Positions 11,093 through 34,255 of a stretch of 64,000 nucleotides of DNA are shown here, in pieces; the stretch's first letter is position 1; each line of letters starts with the position of its first letter. Where the stretch lies: assembly GCA_947650285.1 (NCBI GenBank), contig CANTFL010001489.1, positions 62,001 through 126,000 on the forward strand. Reading direction: 5' to 3'. The DNA comes from Hyaloperonospora brassicae. Its lineage: Eukaryota; Oomycota; Peronosporomycetes; Peronosporales; Peronosporaceae. Both the position numbers and the translations under genes were made by a program. The notes under the pieces were generated by a model, which was given only the letters and a program-made list of their open reading frames with translations, had not been told where the DNA came from and made no database searches.

Positions 11093-14000
11093 CTAACCTT
11101 CATAAAGTAATCCGCCGCACTTATTCTTGATCAAGTCAGGAGAAGTCGCGATACTTTCAATGAATGTCAGCGATATAGCGCTTTCACGAAAGCCATGCAG
11201 CAGATCCCGACATTTATCCTGGTCCAGCGTATTGTACACACCGTAATGTTCGTCAGCAACTACGTCAGCGACCTCGATCGACTTTTCCAGCAGGGGCCGT
11301 GCAAGCTCCACCTTGGCATTCTGTGGGTAACGGACCAAACGCATGATTGTCTTGGCTGACTCGAGCTGTATAAAGTGCAAATTGAACACGAGGGGCGGCA
11401 GACAACGCTTTCGGATGGCAGCATCTTCTGTGGCATCACTAGAGCAGCCTACAAGCCATCCGTTTTCAAAGCGCAGCACCTCCAGCGTTGCAGCTGTCGA
11501 CCGCGAAACGTGGAATATCAATTCCGCCAAGTAGTCCTCCTCTTCACTATAGAGTGATAGCGTCTCCACAGCAGGTCTGCTCACGCAACTTCTCCACAGA
11601 TCAAACTGCGCAGAAGCCTGGATATATGCGCGCCAACAAAGAAATTCGCGCATGGCCTGTTCAATCTCGTCACCCGTGCGCAGCGATTGGGCGGCACGGG
11701 CCCCATCTATAACGCCAATAGAGTCCTCTGGTAGACTCTCCTCAACAAGCTCCTTCAGGGCAGCAAACTTTCCCTCGAAAAGAAACTGCCGTGTGAGCAA
11801 ATTTGTACGGACCAACGCCTCCGCTCGGTGCTCGGGGAAGAAGCACAAAAACTCAATCGCCCGAATACGCCTCCTGTCAACGTCTGTTGTAGCAACGTCA
11901 AAAGACACTAGTTGACCCTGCTTGCCTTGCTGTTTTTGAGCTACCGATCGATATTCCTCACACAGACGCTCAACAACAGCTTGTAGCACAGTTGACAGGA
12001 TGTCCATACCGGCGTGCTCTGCAACTTGCTTGATGCACAGCTCGCGCTCTAGTCGATCGTCAACAGTAGACAGCATCTGCACATACACCTCGATCAAACC
12101 TGCAGTCGGAAGTCGAGACGCATAGACTGGCACAAACTGCAGCTGGCGATGTTGTACCAGATACCGAATATACAGCTTCAAAATCATATGACCCGTTCGC
12201 TCGTCAAAATGTTCACCAGTGTAGCCGGCGAGCATAATGAAGTGGACGGCAAAGCGCAAAAATATCGAAGAAAACTCGTCGGATCGTACCGTCGTAGTCA
12301 ACTGCAAGTCCCAGTTGTACGAATCGTCCCCCGGGTGCAAGAGCAGCGAGCCCAAAACACTTGACACGATGTACTGAAACTTGCCTGTTACCAACTTGGC
12401 CTGGATTTGGCGGTGGGGTTGGTTGGCCTGCGTGCGGACAACCTCGCTTTGGCTGCCTCGCAGCTCATCAAACAGTGCATCTAGATCCGGTTCATAGCGT
12501 TTCAAATACTTCGTCTTGTCCAGCAAATTAGTGAAGTGACGTAAATGGCGGCCATCGTTGCCAACAACCAACCGTGACGACTGAGCTTTCACCTGCAGAA
12601 GCTTGAACAATATCTCGTCAACCTGGCGCTCCGTAATGCCCTGTAGATATGCCCAACAGTGGTCTTCCCAGCTCTCGCACAGCGGGCTTCCCGTAATAAC
12701 CTGAATGTTACCACTCAGCGCCGCATATGTAAGCTCCTCGTACTTTTTCGCAAGCAGACTTTTGCTTTGAGTTAGTTTCCCGTTAGCAGCTTGTTCGGAC
12801 AAGCGCCAGCACATTGATTTCCAAAGTGCACGCATCGGATTGCCCCGTCGCTCGAGAGGCAGATCATCACGCTCGTTCGGTTCGCTAACACCAACCAAAT
12901 TGCCTCCCGAGAGGCTCGCCGCTCTCCAGGACTGACCCAAACGGATGCACAAGTCAGTAGCGTCGACCATCCGCCCCGCACGAACATACAACCAAACAGC
13001 TTTCAGCAACTCAGCTTCGTCCTCCATGTCATCGGGCAGAACATGATTATCCCCGTCGCGCAGCACTGCATCGGGATCTAGCTGGACCTTTCCTCCAGCA
13101 AAACCTTGTTTTCTCATCACTGTCAACGTACGCGATCCAGCAGTTCCTCGCTTTTCACTAATGGTGATCGTCTTCTCCAGCGCCATGCTCTCCAACCAGG
13201 CTTTGACTGCCATTTGAACCATGAACGTTTCACTCTGTTTTTCCAACAAACACATGGCGTCGTCCTCCAGCATCTCAAACCGTAGATCTTCTTTCTCTGC
13301 TCCCAGCACCATCAACACGTTCTCTTCATCCACCTTCTGCTTACGTGTGCTGCACACCTGCCGCAGCTCGAACAATAAGCGCCACGTGTTGCGCTCGTCA
13401 CGCAACTCCGTCATGTCCTTCTGCAGCCTCTCGCGCGTTACGGTCGATGCAGTTTTCCGACTGTCCGCAAGTGCAGCTTCCAGCTTTTCCAGTCGATTCT
13501 GCAGCACAGTAATGTAGCCACGCAGCAGCTTCGCACAATACAGATCTGAGTTCTGCACCTGCGCCACATTGTCGTAAAAGTCCGCTGCCATCACGGCAAA
13601 CGACGCTTCTTCCGGTCGCACACGAGCCGACAACAAGCTCACGCCTTGCGTCGACGGCACATTGTCAATCGCCAGCGAGCGATCAAACGTCGCCAACTCG
13701 GTCATCACGAGGTCGGTAGCGTCCGACATAGCCATAGACAAAGACTGCGGCTGCTCCTGTCGATAGACCGACGCGATCGACGAGATCGACAGCTTCGGGT
13801 CCGATCGTCGAGTCGTGCCATGGCTAGAATTGCCATAGCTGCTATAGCTATTCAGCGCGCTTTGTCTGTCCTTGTCCTTGTCGACGGCTGCAGCTCGAAC
13901 GATCGAAATGGCCCCTTCCCAGCGCACGCCGCAGTCCACAACGAGCCACGCGTCCTCCACGAGCTGCCCACCAAACATGACACGCGCGTCACGTGCACTA

Positions 14001-14404
14001 AGGCCCAAGTCCGTTGCTGAGCCTCTGCGCGCACAGAGCGCGTGTTTCAGGTCCCCGATCGTCGTATAGCGAGCGTCCACATCCACGTACTCGGTCGAGG
14101 CGTCGGGGAAGACGCCCTTGACGTGCAGCAGGTCGGACGACAGCGCGGACGGACGGACCACCGGGTACGCGAGCGACAACGCGTCGGCGGGAGGGCCGGA
14201 GGTCGTCGTGGGGGGCCGTGTGGAGGACGGCTCGAACGACGCAGGCGCGGGGAGGGCCGTCAACGTGTCGGGCACGTGGCGCGCGCTGTGCATTGGCGCG
14301 TCGCCGAGAGACGCGAGCAGACTCAGCGACGCGTCTGCGCTGTCCAAGAGGCGCTGGACCGCAGCGCTGCGCTGCGCGCTGTCGGGTGACGAACGCCTGG
14401 CCAT
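11093..14404 (-). CDS. Nucleoporin Nup107 homologue with N-terminal ubiquitin-like segment
   Basis: This single-exon protein of 1103 residues is a scaffold subunit of the Y-complex (Nup107-160) of the nuclear pore. The Nup84/Nup107 domain spans roughly residues 340-1090. Hallmarks include LWVYVRAGRMVDATDLCIRLG followed by SWRAASLSGG (about 466-500) and RGNPMRALWKSMCW, which match the conserved 'RAG...A..LC...GQ.WRAA.L.G' core. The remainder is all-alpha, as expected. Residues 1-90 are low-complexity. Residues about 91-172 look like a ubiquitin-type fold (beta strand LLHVKGVF, helix TIGDLKHALCARRG, then ARVMFGGQLVED), which ordinary Nup107 proteins lack. Start: the frame stays open upstream through a GATA microsatellite that translates to repetitive peptide, so the ATG at 14404 (MARRSSPDS) is preferred. 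The gene is divergent from the arginyl-tRNA synthetase gene. Confidence 0.88.
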   Translation of the reverse strand: MARRSSPDSAQRSAAVQRLLDSADASLSLLASLGDAPMHSARHVPDTLTALPAPASFEPSSTRPPTTTSGPPADALSLAYPVVRPSALSSDLLHVKGVFPDASTEYVDVDARYTTIGDLKHALCARRGSATDLGLSARDARVMFGGQLVEDAWLVVDCGVRWEGAISIVRAAAVDKDKDRQSALNSYSSYGNSSHGTTRRSDPKLSISSIASVYRQEQPQSLSMAMSDATDLVMTELATFDRSLAIDNVPSTQGVSLLSARVRPEEASFAVMAADFYDNVAQVQNSDLYCAKLLRGYITVLQNRLEKLEAALADSRKTASTVTRERLQKDMTELRDERNTWRLLFELRQVCSTRKQKVDEENVLMVLGAEKEDLRFEMLEDDAMCLLEKQSETFMVQMAVKAWLESMALEKTITISEKRGTAGSRTLTVMRKQGFAGGKVQLDPDAVLRDGDNHVLPDDMEDEAELLKAVWLYVRAGRMVDATDLCIRLGQSWRAASLSGGNLVGVSEPNERDDLPLERRGNPMRALWKSMCWRLSEQAANGKLTQSKSLLAKKYEELTYAALSGNIQVITGSPLCESWEDHCWAYLQGITERQVDEILFKLLQVKAQSSRLVVGNDGRHLRHFTNLLDKTKYLKRYEPDLDALFDELRGSQSEVVRTQANQPHRQIQAKLVTGKFQYIVSSVLGSLLLHPGDDSYNWDLQLTTTVRSDEFSSIFLRFAVHFIMLAGYTGEHFDERTGHMILKLYIRYLVQHRQLQFVPVYASRLPTAGLIEVYVQMLSTVDDRLERELCIKQVAEHAGMDILSTVLQAVVERLCEEYRSVAQKQQGKQGQLVSFDVATTDVDRRRIRAIEFLCFFPEHRAEALVRTNLLTRQFLFEGKFAALKELVEESLPEDSIGVIDGARAAQSLRTGDEIEQAMREFLCWRAYIQASAQFDLWRSCVSRPAVETLSLYSEEEDYLAELIFHVSRSTAATLEVLRFENGWLVGCSSDATEDAAIRKRCLPPLVFNLHFIQLESAKTIMRLVRYPQNAKVELARPLLEKSIEVADVVADEHYGVYNTLDQDKCRDLLHGFRESAISLTFIESIATSPDLIKNKCGGLLYEG

Positions 14405-14516
14405 TAGATCGATAGAGATGTAGATGGACAGATAGATCAACGGACCGATAGATAGATTGATAGATTGATTGATAGAAAAAGTGGGTATTTTTTGCACAAA
14501 TAGATGAATGGATGTA

Positions 14517-14547
<31 letters not shown>
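14517..14547. repeat. (ATAG)n microsatellite
   Basis: There are about 7.5 perfect units, with diverged GATAGATT-type units continuing through 14405-14470 toward the NUP107 start. Confidence 0.9.
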
Positions 14548-14548
<1 letters not shown>

Positions 14549-14635
14549 AGCGTTTTATTTCTCATTTACAGTGCTCGATTACTGCTTCCTGTAAGATCGA
14601 TCAAGGGGGACATGCGATAAAGGATAAATAGATAA

Positions 14636-14655
14636 GTCGTTCGTTCGTTCGTTCG
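14636..14655. repeat. (GTTC)n microsatellite
   Basis: There are five tetranucleotide units in the bidirectional upstream region. Confidence 0.85.
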
Positions 14656-14980
14656 ATAGGTAGATAGATTGAATAGGTAGGGAGTTCGTTCAATAGATAA
14701 AATAGATGTACAGTCTGTTCGATACTTAGATTGATCGAGACAGACACACGCCGAGGTTTCGAATCTAGATAGACTGAAACAGAAGGACTGGTGGTCGAAG
14801 GTCACATACAAACCGCTCTCCTCCCTCGACCCATTCACCTGTCCAGCCAGTTGCACGACACATCTTTGCGCCCCTCTTTAACTTCTGTCGTCGTCGAAGA
14901 CCGTTAACTTCTGTCGTAGCCATCCGATCCCTCCGCCCGCCACTCCCTCAGCCGCCGCGCCACCGCCCGCTGTGCCCGTC

Positions 14981-17446
14981 ATGCAGCTCCTGATCGGCGA
15001 CACGCCCCGCGACGACGAGCTCAAGTGCTTCGTGACCCTGTCGCTCACCCAGACCGTCTTCTCCGTCGCCCCTGCCGACCAGCGCTCGTACGCCACGTGC
15101 GGCGTGCAGCTCGCGGTCGAACCACAGAACGAGCGCATCTTTTCCGCCAATGCCGTGTGTCGCTACGTGGCCGCCGCAGCGCAGCAGCTCCAGAGCGACG
15201 ACCTGATCGTGGACGAGTGGATCGAGTGGGAGGCGAACCGACTGGCGCCGTGGCTGCAGACAGTCGCGTCGCGCGGCCGTTTGCACACGAGCGAACAAGT
15301 GGCGCAGGAGTTGACGGCGCTGCTCGCGGCAAAGGACGAAGAAGGTCGAAAGAGTGGGCGCCAGGAGGACCGGCGCTGTCTCTTTGGCTCGGACCTGTCC
15401 CTGGCCGACGTAATCGTGGGCGTCACGCTGCGCGCTGCTTTTGAGCTCGTGACCGAGCAGCAAAACGAACCACCACTGCTCGAGACGTATCGACGATACG
15501 TGACGCAGCTCTTTGCCCGTGAGGACGTTGCGTTGGGCGTCGCGAGTATGGAGCGAGCGCTGCAGAAGGGCAGTGGCGGCGCTGCTGGTGCGGCTGCTGC
15601 CGGTGCGGCTTTGGTTGTTGACGGCGAGACCGCTGTCGTGCGGTCGACGTTCGAACTTGACGAAGAGCTTGAGAAGGGTCTGACGTTCCACAACATTTTG
15701 GCTATCGTCGAGTCGATCTTTGATGCAGCTGTCAAGACTGCGTACCCTGGTCTGGCTGTCCCGCCTGTAGAGGTCACGCGCACGAACGTCAAGAACGCCA
15801 AGTTTGGCGATTACCAGTGCAACTCGGCCATGGCTATCTTTACCGCGCTGAAGGGAACGCCGCATGCTGCCCAATCGCCGCGGGCTGTCGCCAGCGCTAT
15901 TATTGCCGCGATGCCGGAGACGCGCGTACTGGACCGTCTCAGCGTTGCGGGCGCGGGGTTCATCAACGCTTTCTTGACGCGCGATTTCGTGGTCAAGCGA
16001 TTGCAAAACGTGCTGGTGAACGGTGTGCAGCCGGCTCCACAAAAGCAGCAGACCGTTGTCATTGACTTTTCGTCGCCGAACATTGCAAAAGACATGCACG
16101 TGGGGCACCTGCGCTCCACGATTATCGGAGACACAATGTGTCGCATCCTCGAGTTCCAGGGTCATAATGTGAAGCGCATCAACCACGTGGGTGACTGGGG
16201 CACTCAGTTTGGCATGTTGATTTGCCACCTCACGGAGACGTACCCGAACTGGGAGACAGAGATGCCGAACGTCACGGACCTCACAAAGCTGTACAAGGCC
16301 GCGAAGGAGCGCTTCGATGCCGATGCAGACTTCCATGAGCGCTCGAAGGCACAGGTGGTGCTACTGCAGTCCGGTGACGAAAAGTCTCGCAAGGTCTGGA
16401 CGACCTTGTGTGACATCAGTCGCCGTGAGTTCCAGAAAGTGTACGACCGTCTCGGCGTGTCGCTCACGGAAATGGGCGAGTCGTTCTACAACCCGATCAT
16501 TCCGGGTGTTCTGGACCAACTGCGTGCCAAGGGTCTCATGGAGGAGAGCGACGGCGCCGAGGTGGTGTTCACCAAGATCTACAAGCAGCCATTCTTGCTC
16601 GTGAAGAGCGATGGCTCGTACTTGTACGCGACGACCGACATTGCTGCGCTGTGGTACCGTCTTCACGAGATGCAAGCGGACCGCATTATTTACTACACGG
16701 ACTACACGCAGAAAGACCATTTCAATCTGCTGCTCGAAGTCGGCCGCATGTCGGGTATCTACGATCCCACGAAGCAGCGCGCAGATCACGTTGGCTTCGG
16801 TACGGTGAACGACGAGTCGGGCAAGCGCTTCAAGACTCGCTCGGGTGAGGTCGTGCGCCTCGTGGAGCTGCTGGATGAGGCAAAGATCCGCATGAAGGCG
16901 CAGCTGATAGAGCGCATCGAGGCGGGACAGACGGCGCTGCCTATGGACCAAGTGGACATTGCGGCCGAAAAGCTCGGGTACGGTGCCGTCAAGTACTTTG
17001 ATCTACGTCAGAGCCCCACGTCCAACTACATTTTCAGCTTTGACCGCATGCTGTCGACGAACGGCGACACGGCTGTGTACCTCATGTTCGCCTTTGCACG
17101 TCTGTCCTCGATCATTCGAAAGTCGGGCGTCGACATGGCGGCACTCGTCGCGCAGCAGCTGAAGGATGGCAACGTGCTGAAGCCCGAGCACCCGACGGAG
17201 CAAGCGCTGGTCACCGAACTGCTGCAGCTGCACGACGTGATTGCGTTCATCAACAAGGACCTGAACTCCAATCGCTTGTGCAGTTACCTGTACACGATCT
17301 CGGAGAAGGTGCAGACGTTTGTCACGGCGTGCCGTGTGCTCAACAGCGAAGAGCAGAGCAGCCGTTTGCTGCTGTGCGACGCCACGGTCAAGACCATGAA
17401 GACGTGTTTTGCGCTGCTCGGCATTGACCCGCTGGACCAGATCTAA
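14981..17446 (+). CDS. Arginyl-tRNA synthetase (class I, eukaryotic type)
   Basis: This 821-residue single-exon enzyme charges tRNA-Arg with arginine. The class I HIGH motif is HVGH (373-376) within NIAKDMHVGHLRSTIIGD. INHVGDWGTQFGMLI follows at 400-414. The KMSKS-equivalent is FKTRSG (617-622), the usual degenerate form in ArgRS. The anticodon-binding DALR domain occupies the C-terminal part and ends LCDATVKTMKTCFALLGI, close to the animal enzyme. Residues about 50-195 resemble a GST C-terminal-like domain (FSANAVCRYVAAAAQQ, LFGSDLSLADVIVGVTLR), as used by several eukaryotic synthetases to dock in multi-enzyme complexes. An Ala/Gly linker (about 197-212) follows. The Add-1 region (VKNAKFGDYQCNSAMAIF) is present. 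The ATG at 14981 was chosen because upstream in-frame codons lack another ATG. It has no clear mitochondrial presequence, though the protein could still be dual-targeted. Confidence 0.96.
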   Translation: MQLLIGDTPRDDELKCFVTLSLTQTVFSVAPADQRSYATCGVQLAVEPQNERIFSANAVCRYVAAAAQQLQSDDLIVDEWIEWEANRLAPWLQTVASRGRLHTSEQVAQELTALLAAKDEEGRKSGRQEDRRCLFGSDLSLADVIVGVTLRAAFELVTEQQNEPPLLETYRRYVTQLFAREDVALGVASMERALQKGSGGAAGAAAAGAALVVDGETAVVRSTFELDEELEKGLTFHNILAIVESIFDAAVKTAYPGLAVPPVEVTRTNVKNAKFGDYQCNSAMAIFTALKGTPHAAQSPRAVASAIIAAMPETRVLDRLSVAGAGFINAFLTRDFVVKRLQNVLVNGVQPAPQKQQTVVIDFSSPNIAKDMHVGHLRSTIIGDTMCRILEFQGHNVKRINHVGDWGTQFGMLICHLTETYPNWETEMPNVTDLTKLYKAAKERFDADADFHERSKAQVVLLQSGDEKSRKVWTTLCDISRREFQKVYDRLGVSLTEMGESFYNPIIPGVLDQLRAKGLMEESDGAEVVFTKIYKQPFLLVKSDGSYLYATTDIAALWYRLHEMQADRIIYYTDYTQKDHFNLLLEVGRMSGIYDPTKQRADHVGFGTVNDESGKRFKTRSGEVVRLVELLDEAKIRMKAQLIERIEAGQTALPMDQVDIAAEKLGYGAVKYFDLRQSPTSNYIFSFDRMLSTNGDTAVYLMFAFARLSSIIRKSGVDMAALVAQQLKDGNVLKPEHPTEQALVTELLQLHDVIAFINKDLNSNRLCSYLYTISEKVQTFVTACRVLNSEEQSSRLLLCDATVKTMKTCFALLGIDPLDQI

Positions 17447-17774
17447 GATGTTGTGGTTGCTGCGATTATTCAACAGAGGAGCTGCTGGCTCTGAGCAAGT
17501 GATGGCTTCAAGCAAGTGGTGGCGTGGCTCAGCTGGTCTGGTGGGTTCCACGTCCAACAGAGAGAGAGAGGTGCAGGAAGCTTACTCAATATTTGATTAG
17601 AAATCTGTCTTGCACAGGACTTGTGCAGTGGTGATCGTGTGAAGGTGCTGTCTAGTAGTATACGCAGAGAGAGAGAGAGAGAGAGAGAGGGCAGTAGTGT
17701 CGTGACGGCATTCGGTGTGCACATGTCGCCAACTATGTCCACTTGCAACGCAATTCAGTCGGTCGGTCCGTCGC
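17447..17774. other. Convergent 3' intergenic region with (GA)n tract
   Basis: This separates the ends of the ArgRS and RWP-RK genes. The only notable feature is the GA repeat at 17666-17689. No further gene is seen. Confidence 0.6.
17666..17689. repeat. (GA)n microsatellite
   Basis: There are about 12 dinucleotide units in the 3' intergenic gap between the ArgRS and RWP-RK genes. Confidence 0.9.
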
Positions 17775-18416
17775 CTATGCGCTCGTGCTGTAGTGGAGCC
17801 CCGTGTGGGTTTCCAGCACAGTGCAGTCGGACAGGATAAAGCGCAGCGAGTAGGCCGACAGGTGCTGCTCGCTCAAAGACCCCTCGTTTAGTCCTTCGTC
17901 CTCGTCGTCGTCGTCGTCAAAGCCACTGCTAACGTCGTCTTTGTCATCTTCGGAAGCTGCAGCGAGTACGGCTGCATCCAGTGGGGTCTCGCTCGTGTAC
18001 CGCGGCGGCGGCAGCGTCGGCACGTCGGCGGGTGTGAGTTGCAGCTCGGACGGCACCTGCCCCCCGACCAGTTCCAAGTACTCGTGCGTGAGCTGCTTGA
18101 TCTTGAGCTGGATACGCGCCTTCTGCGCCGCGTCCGACACGTGCGCCATGTACTTGCACAGGTGCTGGATCTTGATGAGCTTGGACGAGACCTGGCGGTA
18201 GGGCCATCGCTGGATGTGCTTCCGGCGGCACACGCGCTTGACGACGGCCTCGCAGCTCCCGAGTCGCCGCGCCGCTTCCCGCAACGGCAGGTGGTAGTAC
18301 TTTTGCAGCTCGGCGAGCTCAAAGTCGGCGCAGGTAGTACTGCCGCTGCTGCTGGTGGTGGTGGTGGTCATTCGTGCGGTGCAACTCGGCCAGCGGATAT
18401 ACCGATCCACTGCCAC
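17775..18416 (-). CDS. RWP-RK domain putative transcription factor
   Basis: This protein of 213 residues (or 198 from the ATG at 18371) has a single RWP-RK motif, a DNA-binding helix-turn-helix-like domain known from plants, algae and stramenopiles. The domain spans about residues 32-85: FELAELQKYYHLPLREAARR, then LGSCEAVVKRVCRRKHIQRW and PYRQ. The signature RWPYRQ stands where the family has RWPxRK, so the final Lys is Gln. A second half is disordered, with the acidic run DDDDDEDE near residue 170, a possible activation segment. Whether the first 15 residues are translated is uncertain; the second ATG (MTTTTTSSSG) is equally plausible. The target genes are unknown. Confidence 0.85.
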   Translation of the reverse strand: MAVDRYIRWPSCTARMTTTTTSSSGSTTCADFELAELQKYYHLPLREAARRLGSCEAVVKRVCRRKHIQRWPYRQVSSKLIKIQHLCKYMAHVSDAAQKARIQLKIKQLTHEYLELVGGQVPSELQLTPADVPTLPPPRYTSETPLDAAVLAAASEDDKDDVSSGFDDDDDEDEGLNEGSLSEQHLSAYSLRFILSDCTVLETHTGLHYSTSA

Positions 18417-20184
18417 GACACGATCGGCAACGACAGCGCGTGCACGTGGTGGAGCACAATGTGAACTGAAGACATGTGCTCTTCGGCAGCCGAAAGGCGA
18501 CTGGAAATGCCGACGATGGTGATGACGGTGCTGCGGCGGCGGCGGCGGCTGCTGCTGTACTTGCTGCCGCTCGGGGAGCAGGTCGGTCCGTGCGTGGAGC
18601 GTTTGTCGAGCCGAGCGGCACAGAAAGGCCGTTCAGGGGCGCGCGTGGCGCGACGACGTGAACTTGAAGCACGGGCTCTACGGAGCTTTGCGTGCCGATC
18701 GGTCGTGAGCCGCCGAGCGGTGCGGGACGACGACGACGACGTTGCCGACGATCGTAGCAGCGAAAGTTTCGCCTGCCCCGTGTGAGCGCGTGCACACATA
18801 CACACACACGCACGCACGCGTCCGTTGTCGGTCTATCCACAGAGGGGTCGCGGGTGGACGGACGGACAGCCGTGCAGGAGGTGGCTCGAAAGGGGTACAC
18901 ACACACACACACAGCGGCAACCGCAGAGGGGTCAGACGTCTCGCGGGCGACGGCGCGTCCATCGGACAAAAAGGACACGCGGTGGGCTGATTCCCATTCC
19001 CGAGGCGCGTGTCGCCTCGTAGCCCACTGCCACTGCCGCTTTGGATTGTTGAGACAACGTGCGCACGCGCTGTGCCACGTCGTCGTCCGGCCGTCAAACC
19101 CGTCGCGAAGCCACACGACCGTCGGCAGATCGATCGACCGACCAAACGTGCGGTTTGCTCGCGCCAATGATCTGCTGATTGACGACCGCCGACTGTGTCG
19201 GGCGTCTAAAGGCAGCCAACGTCTTCGGACGTAGTATTCCTCTGCTTGACCTGCAGTTATCGGTCAGCTCTGGTTGGCAGGGCGCCATTCATCACAATGG
19301 ATCGGACGCTCTAGACCGGTTCATCTCATTAGCCGCTCGAGCTCCGATGAAGCGTTCGCTAGTGGTGGGACGCGGGTGCCACATTCGATCCGTCGGTCGC
19401 TCATTGTGCCCATCGCATTGCAGCAGCCGTCACGAAACTCGTGGACAGGAACGGGCAAAGGCTACACGGGCCATGCACCCGTTGCGAGCGAGCGACTACC
19501 AAGAGAAGGGAAGACGTAGTGCCTGTTGAACGACCGTTCGCGCTACGCGTATGAGCCGAAACAGCACATCAGTTGGTGTCTGTTGAAGAGCAGCAGCAGC
19601 GCTGCGGTAGACAGCGGCCGGCTGGAAAGACGGCCACGTTGTTGTTGCTACTGTTGTTGTTGCTACTGTTGTTGTTGCTACTGCTGGTGGACGTGTCGAG
19701 CTTCGGCAAAGTGGTGCCCTGCGCTTCTGTCGAAGGATCGACGGTATCTACAGCTTTGGTCTGGTCGCAAGAGCGTGGCCGTAAACGAACGTGCGCGTCT
19801 CTGTGACGCAGAACGGCCGAGACCGGATCCACATGATGTAGCCGCCGCACGAGTCGACTGCGTCAACAACGACGTGGCAACGGATGCGTGACGCCTGTTG
19901 CTGCACACTGTGCCCAGCTGCACATCGGTTGGGTCTGTCGCTGGAATAAAAAGGTCCGGCAGGTAGCACCGAGCCAAGCCGGGAGGTCGCTGTTCCTGAT
20001 GATGGTTGACCAAAATTTAGCGAGCAGGTCTGCAAACTCAGTCGTTTGAAGGAACAACTATTTCGCTTCTTGGAATGAGTTGGAAAACTCATGTTGTCAG
20101 CCGATCACTGGCGCTGGAAAACGATGTGTGCATTGAACATGTGTGTCTGTGTGTGTGTGTTTGGTTTGTTGATGAACACGTTGT
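18417..20184. other. Upstream/intergenic region rich in microsatellites
   Basis: Long open frames on the minus strand here (for example 18319-19167) are Arg/Ser/Pro-rich products of low-complexity DNA and have no homology I can recognise. CA tracts lie at 18791-18816 and 18895-18914, a TTG-type triplet tract at 19639-19682, and a TG tract at 20141-20163. The part nearest 18.4-19.2 kb presumably includes the RWP-RK promoter. Confidence 0.5.
19639..19682. repeat. (GTTGTTGTTGCTACT)n triplet minisatellite
   Basis: There are three units of a 15-bp motif, each a TTG-rich triplet array, near-perfect. Confidence 0.8.
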
Positions 20185-20825: not shown

Positions 20826-21218
20826 TGTAACAGGGCAGCCCGTTACATGGAATTGTCACTTTAAAGAGATAATGACAATAAAGAATATTAAGTGAATATT
20901 CTTTGAACAATATCACCGAAGTGGTGATATTGAAGGGTCGACCAAAGAGTCCGTTCATTGGTTGATATCTTGATGATATCAACCCACCAATCGCCGCTAG
21001 ACGCGCGCAATGAGTGGTGACGAGACGTCACCATACACTCAGTTATATTAGCATAATTAAGTTAAGTCAAACAGAGAGACAGTGCTTAAAAGACTTAATT
21101 ATATTAATATAACAGTTCTGCTTTTACCTTATCTACGCTTCCTCGTTTGCCTCGTGTACATCTGTCGGGCGCTCCGAAACCCTTGCGTTAAGTTCACGCA
21201 AGGGTGTGCCCCGTTACA
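20826..21218 (+). repeat. 5' LTR of the gypsy element
   Basis: This is 393 bp and begins with a near-perfect palindrome (TGTAAC…GTTACA). It contains AATAAA at about 20878, AATATCACC…GGTGATATT, GTTGATATC…GATATCAAC, the family core motif CGCTAGACGCGCGCAATG, and ends CCCTTGCG…CGCAAGGG plus GTTACA. No convincing primer-binding site was recognised just downstream. Confidence 0.9.
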
Positions 21219-21262
21219 CCTAGTAGCACTTTGTAGTCCTTCCAAGGACCACAACATCCAAC

Positions 21263-22216
21263 ATGAACATGTTGGATGATGAAGAGACCTTTCACGCCAC
21301 TCGTGAAGGATTTACCCATTTGAGTGACATCGAATGGGGTGCGGTAGAACGAATGAGTTCTACCGTAGGCGAGTTCGCCATTAGCCCCATGTTGGAGTCT
21401 CTAGACAGAGACCAACAACGTTCCGCTATAGCCAAGCTCATTCAAAATGAAATTGTCGTCGAAAGGTAGAAAGTAGCCTTGCTTCACCAGCAAGGCTCTC
21501 AACAGGCCGAGCAGTTGAGAGAACTCGGTGCTCAACAGACAGGGCTGTCAGGTCGTGCCAAAACTTGGTCCCTGAGGATTGAGAGTAGCGACCCACATGT
21601 GTTTAGGTCACTAGATGACTTCAAGTCCCGGCTCAGACAAACGTATGAGCCGCCACGGGCTGAGTTCAGGGCTCGTTCAGAGCTCTTGAAACTCAAGCAG
21701 GGTAAGCGTGATGTGTACGCTTACGCACAACATATAGGACTCCTCGCGAGTAGTATAACTGCCAACCCAGTCCATGAACACACGTTGATTACGGTGTTCA
21801 TGCAAGGGATCGCAGAAGGGCCCGTCAGGAGCCACCTGTTCCGCCTTGAGCTGAATACGCTGGAAGATGCGATATCAGCAGCGGAACAGGAAGACTTTCG
21901 CATGAGACAGTCTCATGCTAGCTCAAACTCTTATTGTCCACCAAGACGACAAGAGATCGGAGGTTCAGAACCAATGGACCTCTGCTATGTTGAGAGCGAG
22001 AGACTTCGCTCTTCAAACAACAAGCGATTGCAGAGGTGCAATCGCTGTCAGAAGTTAGGGCAATACGCATACGAGTGTAGTGCTCCACGCCCAGTACCAA
22101 ACAGTACTGAGCGAAATGGACGACCATTCGCCAAGAAGGGAAATGGGCGTGGGTCCAGCGCTGTTGCGAAGCCGCAACAGCGAAATGGGCCATCAAAAAA
22201 TGGTCGGGGTCAGTAG
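21263..22216 (+). pseudogene. gypsy gag (capsid/nucleocapsid), broken
   Basis: One frame starts at 21263 (MNMLDDEETF) and is interrupted by an in-frame TAG at 21470-21472. The rest continues in the same frame to 22216. The C-terminal part has a retrotransposon gag core (SLDDFKSRLRQTYEPP, YAQHIGLLASSI). A zinc knuckle CNRCQKLGQYAYEC follows, in which the His ligand of CX2CX4HX4C is replaced by Gln. The tail is basic and Gly/Asn-rich. The product would package element RNA; here it is broken. Confidence 0.85.
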
Positions 22217-22218
22217 GG

Positions 22219-25200
22219 GTGGAGCGCCCTACTGATCCAGCAACCTCAAGAGAATTTGCAAATCTCTTGACGAAAGTTGCTCCAGATACACAATCATTGT
22301 GTGTCTCTGCACTTGGTGATGACGTTTCGCTCATCACCTTGAAGTTGGAAGCGACAAATGATTTGTCGCTTCGTGCCCTAGTAGACTGTGGATCATGCCT
22401 AGCGGGCAGCATCTTATAAGTAAGAAACCTGTTGCCTCCAAAGGGCAACATGGAAATCCTAGGTCGACTGGAGTGTCGACCGTAGAGGATCGGTCCCTGA
22501 CTGTGGTTGCACAGCCACAGTCAGAAGACATCGAGGAAATAAGTCCCCACGTACTTGAGGAAGGAATTCCTCAAGAGTCACTTATTGAAGGTTTAGGCCT
22601 TCAGCAACCTGTGGAAAGAAGTTCCCAGGAAGTAACCGAGACGTTGAACGTCTTGGTCAATGACGGATCAAGCGTAGGCGCTTATACGCATGATATGATT
22701 GTGCCTCCGAAGTTAACTTCGGAGATAACTCAGTTGCCAACGCTAAAACCGAAACGGTTCTTGCGTGATCTGCGTAGTGGCAAAGTCAAGCAGATCTGCA
22801 TACTCGTCACAGAGGATGAGTATGTGGCCGACATTCGGTCGGCGACAGTATTTGCTGAGAACGAACGGGTTCTCAGCAGCTCATCGATGGACGAAAGTGT
22901 CCTCGGTGAGAAGACTCGGATTGAGCGATACACGTCTCAATCCTGGGAGTCACTTCAGGCAAATCCTTTGTATAAGGATTTGTTCGAATTCAGGGATGTG
23001 TTCCCTTAATCCGTACCTTGCGAGTTGCCTAAGGACAAAGGCACTCGACACGAGATCGAGCTCAGACCGGGCTCGAATTACTGTGTCATGAAGCAGTGGC
23101 CACTGCCTCGTGAACAAGTACTAGCGATCGACAAGTTCTTTGCCGATCGCTTAGCAGCGGGCCATGTGAGGGAATCAACATCCCCTCACAGCTCTCCGAC
23201 CTTCTGTGTGCGAAAGGCCACAGGAGGGTGGCGGGTAGTGCACGCATTCAACAAATTGAATGCTGCAACGGTACCGGCTCAGACGTCGATACCGAGGAAG
23301 GACGTCATCATAGATGGTATGCCAAAGAGTACCATCTTTTCGTCCATGGATCTGATGGATGGATTCTATCAGGTCCTCATGCGTGAACGGGACATCCCGT
23401 ACACGGCAGTGAGCACCCCCAGCGGTATGTTGTGGGAGTGGCTTGTTATGCCACAGGGGCTGAGCAATGTCCCTGCAACATTCAACAGATGTGTCACAAA
23501 TCTGTTGAGACCGGTGCGAGACTTCACACCGAGTTACTTCGACGATGTGTTCGTCCATAGCCGGGCTATGGACGGAAAGACGGACGTTGAAGTTCACAGA
23601 ACTCACGTTCGTCAGGTTCTTCAACTTATGCGCAAGTATAAGTTGTACGCCAAAATTAAGAAGTGTATATTCGCGGCTATCGATATACCACTTCTTGGGT
23701 GCATCGTGGGTAAACACGGCGTACGCCCTGATCCCGAAAAGATCAAGGCGATCACCGACTGGCCAGTGCCAGTCGATGTCAAGGGACTAAGGAAGTTCCT
23801 TGGCCTAGCGGCGTACTTGCACAAGTACTCGCGCAACTACGTCGAGATGACTGTTCATCGTTCTTGATTGATCAAGAAAAATGTCAAGTGGTCATGGAAC
23901 GCTGATTGCCAGCGTTCCTTTGAGATTATTAAGCAAAGCCTGATGCAATCGCCGATCTTGGCGATTGCAGATCAGGACAGACCATTTCATGTGGTCTGTG
24001 AAGCCAGCAATTTTGCAATCGGCTGTGCGTTAATGCAGTTCGATGCAGATGGCGCAGAGCGCGTCATCTGTTATCAGTCGCGTCAGCTGCAAGCAGCTGA
24101 TCGTAATTACCCAGTGCATGACAAGGAACTCCTTTCCATGAAGTACGCACTGGCTAAGATTCGCGTCTATCGCTTGGGAGATAGACCGTTTGTTGTCTAT
24201 ACGGACCATGCGTCATTACGCACGGCCGTAAACAGCCCACACCTTTCGCAAAGGATGGCGAGGTGGCTGTCTTTCTTCGCGGAGTATGACTTCTCCGTGG
24301 AGTATAAACCAGGACGACTAAACGTCGTCGCTGATGCGCTCTCGCGCCGGCCCGATTTCGAGCCGGACGCACAACCAAACAGTGAGGATAAGCCCACTGT
24401 TGCGACACTGTCAGTCAGTGTCCCGTCGTCAAGTTTACTTGACGACGTACGAAAGGCATACGCGGAAGATAAGGATCTTCTGCGATCGATGGATCATCTG
24501 GTGAATCCATCTAGTAAATCCATGAGGGATTTACCAGCTTTGTACCGATCCTCATCGGATCGGTATAGTACACGCAACGGATTGCTGTACTATACAGCTG
24601 TTGCCGACGACACGCCTCGTGTCGTCGTACCCGCTCATCATGATTTGCGTTTACGCATCATGTATGAGTGTCAAGATGCCCCAACAGGCGGCCATCGTGG
24701 TAGAGAAAAGACTTACCTCACGGTAAGTCGTGACTTTTACTGGCCACGCCAGTATCAGTTTGTGCGCAAGTACATACGTGCTTGTGAGGTTTGCCAACGG
24801 GTGAAGCCTAGTCCTTCATTCCGTGCGCCATTGCAGCCTCTGCCTGTTCCGACAGAGTGCTGGCAGTCCATTTCAATGGACTTCGTCTTCGTTTTTCCCG
24901 AAGACGCTCGCGAGAATAATGGTATTCTTGTGTTTGTTGACCGGTTCAGCAAAATGGTCCATCTTGCTGCTGTACCCGAGTCGATCAAGGCTCAGGGTTG
25001 TGCCCGTGTCTTTCTCGACACGGTCTTTAGACTCCACGGGTTACCCCGTGAACTCGTATCCGACCGTGAACCTCGGTTCACGGCGGCATTTTGGCAAACC
25101 GTGTTCCGTTCTCTCGGAACACGATTGAAGATGTCCACTTCCGACCATCCCGAAACAGATGGTCAGACGGAACGTGCGAACCGTGTCCTCGAAGAGAGTC

Positions 25201-25427
25201 TTCGAGGATATGTCCACTCGTTTCCGAGTTGGAGCGGATGTCTACCCATGGTGGAATTCGCCATCGATAATTCGGTGCATGCTTCCACACAGCACACACC
25301 GTTTTACGTGAATGGCCTACGCCATCCACGTGTGCCCACCCTTCTAGAGTGTGACTCTTGGATAAGGGGGAGGGACTCGCTCGAGCAAAAACCGTTTTGG
25401 CTCTTGCTCATCACGTGTCGACGCTAA
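22219..25427 (+). pseudogene. gypsy pol (protease remnant, RT, RNase H, integrase core)
   Basis: The protease is only a remnant (RALVDCGS near 22370-22400, where D-S/T-G is expected). From 22395 a single frame runs through reverse transcriptase with the active site YFDD at 23535-23546. It continues through RNase H (CEASNFAIGCALMQF and YTDHASLRTAV; the usual first Asp is Glu) and integrase. Integrase has a zinc-binding region (GHRGREKTYL, CEVCQRVKP) and catalytic D-D-E blocks (SMDFVF, SDREPRF, ETDGQTERANRVLEE). In-frame stops TAA (23007-23009) and TGA (23865-23867) and a frame loss near 25365 disable it. An acidic spacer lies in another frame at about 25420-25630. Confidence 0.92.
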
Positions 25428-25716
25428 CGTCGTCACGTGTGATGCCGATGTCGATCAAGTCGACATCGATGAAGAAGATCACCTCAATAATAGCGATGAC
25501 GCTATTTTTGACTCGGATGATGATGACGATGCTGGTATATTCAGCATCGTCAACAATTGTTCCAGCGAGGAAGAAGACAACCTCGCTGAAGAAGAGAACA
25601 ATCTCTTAGCAGTGCGCACGAAGCGCACTGAAAGACAAAACAAATAGTCAGCAGAGAACTTCCTACTGACTCGAGAAGCGGTAGTCTGTTTCGTTCAGGA
25701 CTCCATCGCAAATGCG

Positions 25717-26751
25717 GTGGACCGTCAGAAACGGGACGCAGACAAGAATGGAAGAGAAAATGCTCTTTCATTTAAGGTTAATGACCTAGTACTACTGTCT
25801 ACGGTAAACCTACCTGGACACGCAGTCACTAGTGTCGGCAGTAGTAGACTACTGCCGAAGTACATTTGGCCATTTCGAGTGTTGCATCGCAAGGGCAATG
25901 CATACACGATCGAATTGCCACGTAAGATGCGCACGCATCCTACGTTTTACGTGGGGAGGCTTAAGCCGTACTGATAGTACGAGCCTTCTTCTTCCGACGA
26001 AGATAGCCCCCACGTTCAAGAACATCCATCAAGTTCTTGCGCTCGCGCTCCAGACGATCCGTCTGGTCGCGCAGATATGATACCTCGGAACTCAACCGAG
26101 ATATCTCCCCGCGAGCTGTCGCCAGCTCGCCAAATAGGGAGCGGACATCCCGCTCGACCTGAAGCTGCGCCGTGGCATAATCGGCGCGGTCTCTCGCTCG
26201 ATCATCCTCGTGATCCTTGCGGTTATTCCTCACGGTATCAGTCAAAGCGTAGCGCCGGTCGCGCTCGTGCTTCAGGTCATCGCGCAATTCATCGATTGCG
26301 CAATCCATCTCGTAAGGGTCGAGATGGTGAACCGAATCATCTGGAGGAGGTCTTTCCTCCTCCACCACATCCTTTGGTGGATGCTCACGTAGATCAACGC
26401 TTTCTAGTGGAGCGTATTTTGAATCACCGTGACGATTCAGGATCTAGGAAGAGCTACCTCGTCCAGTGGCGGGGGTATCCACCCTCTTGGAACAGCTGGG
26501 AGCCCCGTTCTCAGCTGTTGATGGATGTTGAAGGTCTCGTCCGCCAGTATGACGAGACCCATCCGATGAGTCCTCGGGATCATCGGGAAACACGCGCTTT
26601 TGGCGCTTGTAGACGGATTGCGGGTTTGCAATCTCGTCACGCATTTCCTCCGAGATGTGTGCCCTTCCCCAGGGCGAACTTAGGAGAAACACTTCCCTAT
26701 GTGCACGCTGCGAGTTGTCAACACAACTCGCACAAGGGTCTCCCCATGTGA
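25717..26751 (+). pseudogene. gypsy integrase C-terminal part and chromodomain
   Basis: At 25717-25974 the integrase C-terminal GPY/F-type module reads LLPKYIWPFRVLHRKGNAYT and RTHPTFYVGRLKPY, then stops (TGA TAG). The same frame reopens. At about 26401-26562 it encodes a chromodomain (FLVERILNHRDD, YLVQWRGYPPSWNSWEPRSQL), which directs chromovirus integration to particular chromatin. The stops separate the chromodomain from the integrase. The region in between is Arg/Pro-rich on this strand and is covered by coding sequence on the other strand. Confidence 0.85.
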
Positions 26752-27565
26752 GACAAGGAATGTCTGCATCACTCGAAAAACAGTGCAACCGGTACCATGC
26801 ACCGGTCGGTGTTCGCTTTTCGAACCTGAGGCGTGTATCCTCAAGTTTCTTGAGCCACCCTTCTCGTCCAAAATTCTTTACGTTTTGGACGAACGCGTTC
26901 CACGCAGCCAAAAGCGAGGCTTTGTCACGCTTTTGGTTGCCGTTGTACCATCGATGTCTAAGAAAGACATCGAGATAAAAATCTTCTTCAGCGCGAAAGC
27001 TCTTCGCGCTGGAACTCAAGCCGTGAAGCTCAGTCGCATCTAAGGGTATTCGATGGTGTTGGCTTGTCTCGTGATACAAGATATTGATGAGCCGTTCGGG
27101 CAAACGCCACGACTTTAGATCATCACGCTTCACAGTGGTACCTTTGTTGGTACCACGGCTCCCAGATTGACGACGGCTCACGCCATCGACATCACGCTCG
27201 TGCGAAGACGCACGAGCCGGCGGTGGTAAGGAATAATATTTCTCACCACCCTGATCATCATCATCACTGCCGAACAGACTGTGATGCAAATCACGAGTCC
27301 GTTCGTTCGGCAGTGGCCTTGGCGAATACTGAGGCGTCTCCGGTGAGCGAAACGCCTCTGCAGCATTGCCCGAGTCAGACACGTCTGACTCGCCAGAATA
27401 GATGACCTCAACGTCGGGGTCATCATGCGCACGCGGTGTGGTGCCGCGTGCACCTGCAGCACCTGTTGCTGCAGGTGAAGAAGGAGCAGATGTCGACGAA
27501 TCGTCTGCCGCAGAGGCTGGCACAGCACCGGGATGTGCGGGTCTTGAGTCACCTCGCATAGACAT
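25961..27565 (-). pseudogene. Antisense gene inside the gypsy element, one stop codon
   Basis: Opposite to pol, a frame begins ATG at 27565 and stays open for 373 codons to a TAG at 26444-26446. It continues in the same frame to 25961, giving about 534 codons with one internal stop. The N-terminal third is disordered and Ser/Pro/Asp-rich. A middle globular part has HRWYNGNQKRDKASLLAAWN and a Cys cluster CLTWGDPCASC. The C-terminal 135 residues (downstream of the stop) are a charged coiled coil (LRDQTDRLERERKNLMDVLE). It overlaps the chromodomain on the other strand. I do not recognise the family. Antisense ORFs at this place are known in some plant gypsy elements (Grande, RIRE2, Ogre), so a transposon accessory protein is likely. 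Confidence 0.65.
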
Positions 27566-27694
27566 GTTAACTATGCGAGGTCAAGCGGAAAGTGAATGGA
27601 ACGGACCCAACAAGTGCTCCCTGTCCCAATGGTGACCGACGGGTGGCCACCACATTTTCAATAGTCACACGGTGACTATCAGTTAAGGGGGTGA

Positions 27695-28086
27695 TGAAAC
27701 GGGGCAGCCCGTTACATAAAATCGTCACTCTAAGGAAACTGACAATAAAGAATATGAAGTTGAATATTATTTGAGCAATATCACCGAAGTGGTGATATTG
27801 AAGGGTCGACCAAAGAGTCCGTTCATTGGTTGATATCTTGATGATATCAACCCACCAATCGCCGCTAGACGCGCGCAATGAGTGGTGACGAGACGTAACC
27901 ATACACTCAGTTATATTAGCATAATTAAGTTAAGTCAAACAGAGAGACAGTAGTTAAAAGACTTAATTATATTAATATAACAGTTTTACTTTTTCCTTAT
28001 CCTACTCTTCCTCGTTCGCCTCGTGTACGTCTGTCGGGGCACCCAATCCCTTGCGTTAAGTTCACGCAAGGGTGTGCCCCGTTACA
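27695..28086 (+). repeat. 3' LTR of the gypsy element
   Basis: This 392-bp LTR is about 90-95% identical to the 5' LTR, with the same palindromes and AATAAA. It is preceded by the purine tract AAGGGGG at 27685-27691. It is followed directly by LINE sequence rather than by the 637-bp repeat that precedes the 5' LTR. Confidence 0.9.
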
Positions 28087-33822: not shown

Positions 33823-34255
33823 TGTAAAGGGGCGCGCCTTGTGTCAATTAAACACAAGGTTGTGTGCACCCGACGTCACGTACACGTGGCGTGAGGAAGC
33901 GCAGCAAAGTAGGCAGAACTCGAAAACTCTATCTAAGGAAAAAGTAGATCTGTTAATACAGTTATGTTTCTTAATAAACCATCTATTGTCTTGAGCTAAC
34001 TATTCTAACCTACAATCTCCTATGTGGGTTTCTTGCCCACCACCCATTGCGCGCGTCCAGCAGCGATTGGTGGTTAATCTAATTGATGTACTGTGATCAT
34101 CAACCATCAGGTGGAGCAAACCGTCAAAGAATGATTACCCTCGGGGGTAATATTCCTTCAACCTTACTCCTTACGGGTGATGTCAATTAAACATAAAAAA
34201 TTGATATATCTATACAAAGATATCAATTTTTATGAAACGGGCTGGCCCCGTTTCA
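33823..34255 (-). mobile_element. Solo LTR A (gypsy family), TSD GCGAC
   Basis: This 433-bp LTR is on the minus strand, beginning TGAAACGGGG..GCCCGTTTCA and ending CCCCTTTACA. The direct repeat GCGAC flanks it exactly (33818-33822 and 34256-34260). It shares the core CATTGCGCGCGTCCAGCAGC with the full gypsy element but is otherwise clearly diverged. No internal region remains, so it results from LTR-LTR recombination. It interrupts LINE-like sequence. Confidence 0.92.

Follow-up and report, generated by a model that had tools for sequence, protein, structure and literature searches.

The element in the window and its relatives

The window analysed here, a 64-kb stretch of the Hyaloperonospora brassicae genome (contig CANTFL010001489.1), contains an element of 7,261 bp in which gag, reverse transcriptase (RT), RNase H, integrase and chromodomain sequences lie between two LTRs, with the coding sequence in pieces (Table 1). 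This copy is decayed by stops, and a target duplication, looked for in its flanks, was not present. The family to which it belongs (F1) is large: a 1-kb query piece yielded 40 scored matches from 1,766 first-look candidates. In a young F1 copy, on contig C40, the two LTRs match without a difference over 392 bp, and the target duplication CATAA was read by eye from the flanking sequence. Its sense ORFs of at least 150 aa measure 396, 1,339 and 411 aa, and its antisense ORFs of that size 539 and 174 aa.

Table 1. Features of the element, in window coordinates
Feature	Position	Strand	Basis
5' LTR	20826..21218	+	direct repeats; ends TGTAAC...GTTACA read
5' LTR hairpins	20880-20904, 20908-20932, 20960-20984, 21015-21033, 21179-21205		hairpin scan
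gag fragment ORF, 245 aa	21479..22216	+	PF03732, E 1.4e-12
Longest stem of this copy, 12 bp, loop 1	22348..22372	.	hairpin scan
Reverse transcriptase ORF piece	23025..23867	+	PF00078, E 3.2e-24
RNase H and integrase ORF piece	23868..25427	+	PF17917, PF17919, PF17921, PF00665
11-bp stem, loop 2 (24424 arms of the original prediction, register corrected)	24424..24447	.	
Five consecutive hairpins over the integrase core	25035..25208	.	hairpin scan
Chromodomain ORF	26077..26751 (domain ~26404-26556)	+	PF00385, E 1.7e-13
Antisense ORF, 373 aa, overlapping the chromodomain end	26444..27565	-	ORF call; no Pfam match at E 0.01
3' LTR	27695..28086	+	direct repeats; ends read

Integrase-domain searches yielded, among the best-scoring matches listed, two further hairpin-rich families, F2 and F3. 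RT and RNase H precede the integrase in the window pieces and in the F2 and F3 polyproteins, the chromodomain (PF00385) follows the integrase in F1, F2 and F3, and F2 and F3 additionally carry protease and Tf2-1-like SH3 domains. F1 is an LTR retrotransposon of the Ty3/Gypsy type with a chromodomain, chromovirus-like by domain content and order. It shares with chromoviruses the LTRs, gag, the RT-RNase H-integrase order and the chromodomain. However, it differs from them by the perfect hairpins densely spaced over its whole length and by the long antisense ORF at its 3' end, neither of which is, to our knowledge, a chromovirus hallmark.

In oomycetes, Chronos is described as a Ty3/Gypsy element with a chromodomain adjoining the integrase and a second, plant-type RNase H (PMC5348765). 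The elements studied here resemble it in Ty3/Gypsy type and in the chromodomain by the integrase, but no second RNase H was among the Pfam hits (E <= 0.01) of the window element, F2 and F3. The main text of that paper uses none of the terms hairpin, antisense and inverted repeat (PMC5348765).

Hairpin density and its controls

For the main counts, a hairpin was defined as a perfect stem of at least 8 bp with a loop of at most 10 nt. The window element contained 68 hairpins (9.4/kb), the remaining 56.7 kb of the window 21 (0.37/kb) and the young copy 107 in 7,983 bp (13.4/kb). Across a whole retrotransposon, hairpins were 25 to 35 times as dense as in the background. The counts per kb climbed at one LTR edge of the window copy and dropped at the other, and in the young copy LTR, gag, pol and antisense ORF were similarly dense (11-18/kb). 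The original prediction had placed closely spaced short hairpins all along the element, and these counts bear it out. Its wording that the element consists almost entirely of hairpins was an overstatement, since they span only 37% of the young copy; stems of at least 7 bp cover 22% of the window copy. Among the 15 stems it had named, 14 were found as given. Nine of its ten arm pairs are perfect, while the one at 24424 had been written 2 nt out of register and is in fact an 11-bp stem. The five hairpins in a row are present; counting from the ends, their stems measure 6, 9, 9, 7 and 10 bp.

With loops of up to 12 nt, the window element had 25 stems of 8 bp, 20 of 9 bp and 17 of 10 bp, compared with means of 0.92, 0.20 and 0.04 in 50 dinucleotide shuffles with the same loops. 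The excess over these shuffles was 1.1 at 4 bp, 6.8 at 7 bp, 27 at 8 bp and 100 at 9 bp. Mirror repeats of the same geometry, used as a control, were not enriched in the window element. Codon shuffles, the comparison on which the original prediction had staked its claim, gave the same picture: stems of at least 8 bp in the pol ORF numbered 53 in the young F1 copy against a mean of 1.0 in 200 shuffles (maximum 5), 35 against 1.4 in F2 and 18 against 1.3 in F3. In a fourth family, F4, the pol ORF had 1 against 0.7, and three partial pol ORFs had 0-1 against 0.4-0.5.

The neighbouring LINE and the host genes had been said to be free of the excess, and this agrees with the hairpin counts in the other ORFs of the window (LINE endonuclease 0, Nup84 1, PPT 0, patatin 1). 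Of the DNA adjoining the young copy, 6.4 kb contained no hairpin and 5.6 kb contained 3. Furthermore, 20 loci from RVT_2/rve searches (L042-L061), which are of Copia type or lack a Gypsy RT/integrase hit, had 32 hairpins in 69 kb, 25 of them in L043-L046 and mostly within a TGACGTCA array.

Other copies of the family share the trait: the 34 distinct F1 loci (L002-L038 minus three doubles) carried 5.4-12.7 hairpins/kb, with a median of 11.3. Among the matches listed, five F2 loci had 5.4-6.4/kb and five distinct F3 loci 1.7-4.0/kb; L063 and L070 are one F3 locus, and the density of L063 was taken from its first 6.3 kb (3.5/kb) because an F1 fragment at its 3' end raises the count. F4 was at background, with 4 hairpins in 17.6 kb at six loci (L073-L076, L078 and L079). 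L073 and L078 adjoin each other, and L079, which the tree does not include, was placed in F4 solely because its RT and integrase show identity to F1 and because it lacks hairpins. Over 997 pol columns, F2, F3 and F4 were 56%, 55% and 56% identical to F1, F2 and F3 were 75% identical to each other, and F4 was 54% identical to F2 and 53% to F3. The hairpin trait is family-specific: F1, F2 and F3 have it, whereas F4, whose pol is just as close to that of F1, does not. F4 and the hairpin families form an unrooted three-way tree, which fits loss in F4 and repeated gain alike. A scan of viral_contigs found no relative.

Dinucleotide shuffles, codon shuffles and mirror repeats rule out chance, base composition or codon bias as the source of the hairpins, to which we assign a negligible probability; the other ORFs, the flanks, the Copia loci and F4 are likewise at background or near it. 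A host-wide effect is ruled out by the hairpin-poor flanks, the Copia loci and F4.

Shape, coding sequence and turnover of the hairpins

The stem lengths of F1 were humped and not geometric (26 of 7 bp, 32 of 8, 31 of 9, 28 of 10, 11 of 11, 4 of 12 and 1 of 14). Loops of 3-6 nt were the most frequent, and loops of 10 nt numbered 11, but those of 11 nt only 3. No common motif was seen when the loop sequences were inspected by eye. For stems of at least 7 bp, length was negatively correlated with GC (null 0.03), with rho -0.23 for F1 (p=0.011) and -0.37 for F3 (p=0.055), but the value in F2 was 0.00, and +0.25 for stems of at least 6 bp. The variance of hairpin energy in F1 was not reduced. The idea of a stability threshold thus draws on part of the data, given the missing trend in F2 and the unreduced variance in F1.

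Hairpins in the register joining codon positions 1 and 2 were depleted in F1 pol (7 of 53; 24/7/22, p=0.0075), indicating that synonymous sites were used. The original prediction that synonymous positions are tuned for pairing is therefore supported in F1 pol, though in F2 (13/11/11) and F3 (3/8/7) this register was not depleted. The amino-acid cost of the F1 stems was not significant (23/121 vs 46/340, p=0.18).

Hairpins with a common centre in aligned pol numbered 3 for F1-F2 (1.2 expected), 3 for F1-F3 (0.9) and 5 for F2-F3 (0.5), and the overlap compared with shifted alignments gave p=0.07, 0.59 and 0.006, respectively. So few positions common to F1 and F2 or F3 indicate that hairpins turn over. 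Fixed site-specific roles are rejected on the same ground, though F2 and F3 do have their five hairpins in common.

The F1 alignment had 39 rows, representing 36 distinct copies (L020, L028 and L030 are doubles; L015 and L040 were dropped for coverage), and 36 hairpins were present in at least 15 of the 36. When three diverged copies were excluded, variants found in at least three copies occupied 26 of 664 stem sites, compared with 133 of 2007 sites outside (p=0.010) and 23 of 195 loop sites (p=0.0001). Within F1, stems are conserved and loops vary freely, and compensatory double changes occur in diverged copies. Double changes within a pair numbered 11 in L010 and L021 together, compared with 1.5 expected for independent arms, and 10 of them restored Watson-Crick pairing; four of the six restored pairs of L010 fall in one hairpin. 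In L066 there were 8 against 4.8 expected, 7 of them restoring, and in F2 and F3 12 against 10.3 and 11 against 6.4, with 8 and 5 restoring. The low divergence of shared hairpins is by itself no proof, since pairing is what defines them. Differences in the stems occurred on both arms.

Candidate explanations

Some RNA viruses have genome-scale ordered RNA structure, and the original prediction had considered selection for a compact RNA genome. The sense RNA of these elements might likewise be selected for overall foldedness, for hiding from small RNAs, for packing or for stability. By our own criterion, selection on the sense RNA predicts that G.U is tolerated and A.C is not. Stems with one internal mismatch had G.T:A.C ratios of 7:6 in the window copy and, with at least 7 pairs, 18:19 in F1, 5:5 in F2 and 4:2 in F3 (backgrounds 1-2 each); in the sense region of F1 alone the ratio was 16:17. 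This equality within elements argues against plain RNA folding. Stem polymorphisms of F1 gave 35:33 for those confined to a single copy, 10:5 for those shared by two and 3:11, against G.T, for those in at least three. Across diverged relatives, however, G.T mildly exceeded A.C, by 61:43 (p=0.095; eight rows, including two that are reciprocal to others), and the trade-off between stem length and GC in F1 and F3 also speaks for foldedness. So does the folding energy of F1, at -49.1 kcal/mol per 120 nt for the sense strand and -32.1 for shuffled sequence, the likeness to RNA viruses lying in an energy that throughout the element is far lower than in shuffled sequence; yet its antisense strand folds equally well (-48.4), its stems are short, perfect and local, G.U is not preferred within elements and the strands are alike. 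The corresponding values were -39.3 vs -34.2 in F2, -34.4 vs -32.2 in F3 and -35.9 vs -31.5 in F4; the antisense strand folded slightly better in F2 (p=0.008) and the sense strand slightly better in F4 (p=0.045). The compact-genome proposal was weakened by the symmetry of mismatches and strands, and we consider selection on sense RNA unlikely. Both strands might instead be transcribed, with each RNA folding on itself and the two thereby being kept from pairing as dsRNA, which would feed silencing. Since both strands must then fold, G.T and A.C would be equally bad, in keeping with the strand symmetry within elements, and F1, F2 and F3 carry long antisense ORFs (539, 465 and 505 aa). However, F4 has one of 437 aa and no hairpin excess, and the gag-pol hairpins are as dense as those of the antisense region, so that this explanation appears quite improbable.

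Strand symmetry and perfect stems would also be produced if the reverse transcriptase of F1-F3 switched template in near-palindromes and copied one arm from the other. Template switching of this kind has been described in yeast DNA (PMC8604942). Exact loop inversions of 5 nt (L026), 3 nt (L066) and 2 nt (L024) fit such a process. Of these, the 5-nt inversion is the solid case, as the plain-reversal and plain-complement controls gave one hit each at three or more sites. Three exact inversions in 36 distinct copies indicate that hairpins switch template now and then. However, each inversion occurs in a single copy and may postdate insertion, and only two of 91 substitution clusters from the 39 F1 rows (89 with doubled copies counted once) matched a nearby reverse complement, both being loop inversions. 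Differences confined to one arm were found in 7 of 50 lineage-specific hairpins (those with two or more differences, in four comparisons), with 9.5 expected and low power at high divergence, and a 5'/3' arm polarity was absent. The lack of one-arm copied tracts argues against bulk template switching, and bulk copying of tracts is rejected because the cluster search and the one-arm test, the latter of low power at deeper divergence, were both negative. The fold-back copying during reverse transcription envisaged earlier is accordingly not supported in the form of tract copying, and a mutational drive as the main cause seems to us rather improbable. With quasipalindrome correction (PMC8604942) the elements share arms kept alike and an occasional exact inversion of the spacer, but they differ in that no multi-base arm-copy event was observed and that a whole family is involved and not scattered sites.

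We tentatively favour the view that the hairpins result from a pressure that treats both strands alike and acts on single-stranded intermediates of replication, probably cDNA. In F1-F3, evolution through the replication cycle would keep creating, perfecting and replacing local hairpins with stems of about 8-10 bp and loops mostly of 3-10 nt. The pressure would act on a single-stranded form, equally on both strands, most likely the cDNA of reverse transcription. Mismatches would be removed singly from imperfect stems, on whichever arm they lie, through selection among copies or through mismatch repair in the folded strand. The tie to the replication cycle is suggested by the decayed window copy, which is poorer in hairpins than young copies, and by the adjoining DNA, which has nearly none. 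Against pressure on cDNA stand F4, which goes through the same cycle and lacks the trait, the 61:43 preference for G.T, as RNA folding predicts, the stem-length/GC values of F2, the energy variance of F1, and the double changes in F2 and F3, little above independence.

It is conceivable, and we put this still more cautiously, that this LTR retrotransposon lineage has its whole sequence under a self-perfecting hairpin regime on the single-stranded DNA copy, with about 100 hairpins per element, arms changing in concert, births and losses at new places, and synonymous accommodation. If true, a mobile element would here be subject to a level of constraint, or to a mutational drive, that is new. 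Under a drive, replication machinery would shape coding sequence by a new route; under selection, there would be a constraint that models usually leave out and that would bias codon and dN/dS analyses of these elements. In a literature search of titles and abstract openings, with most subscription papers and bioRxiv outside its scope, we found no description of such a hairpin density. Hairpin-rich F1-F3 and hairpin-free F4, in one genome and at similar pol divergence, constitute a natural controlled experiment on the role of folding for a retroelement or on the effect of replication on palindromes.

The antisense gene as such is rejected as the cause of the hairpins, since F4 carries one without hairpin excess. 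The antisense protein of F1 showed no significant relationship to that of F2 (E 0.064), and the F2 protein is significantly related to that of F3, with 43% over 181 aa.

Antisense ORFs and a stem in the Gypsy families

A long antisense ORF (437-539 aa) was located at the 3' end in all four Gypsy families, that is, F1 (the family of the window element), its hairpin-rich relatives F2 and F3, and F4, a close relative at background hairpin density. The ORFs of F1, F2 and F3, the three families scanned, gave no Pfam match above cut-off.

Antisense ORFs of the four Gypsy families by fetched locus
Family	Position	Strand
F1	L040:2265-3881	-
F2	L062:4537-5931	-
F3	L063:4701-6215	-
F4	copy in L078/L073	

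At three of the four F4 loci printed (L073, L074 and L076), this hairpin-poor family retained one hairpin (GGTGAAGTGTT...AACACTTCACC; stem 11 bp, loop 10 nt), which was absent from L075.

A mosaic copy and possible nested insertions

The F1 copy L066 was of mosaic make-up: its pol was 92-93% alike to F1, whereas the fetched stretches on both sides reached 76-83%. F1-like fragments lay inside or beside the F3 stretch (L063:6608-7001, 91%) and the F2 stretch (L062:6640-6980, 83%), suggesting nested insertions.

Palindromes and mirror repeats elsewhere

At the Copia-type locus L043, TGACGTCA palindromes formed a short array (538-657), and similar arrays were observed in Copia-type L044, L045 and L046; in each, several hairpins overlapped within ~75-120 bp and the rest of the element was hairpin-poor. 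Hairpin counts were slightly raised at 33-38 kb of the window, a stretch including a 9-bp hairpin (34233-34255; TGAAACGGG...CCCGTTTCA) similar to the palindrome that opens the F1 LTR, and this is perhaps another LTR. Mirror repeats were clustered outside the Gypsy element at 14000-20000, with 24 of the matches in the mirror-repeat scan of the window falling in the 14-20 kb bins.
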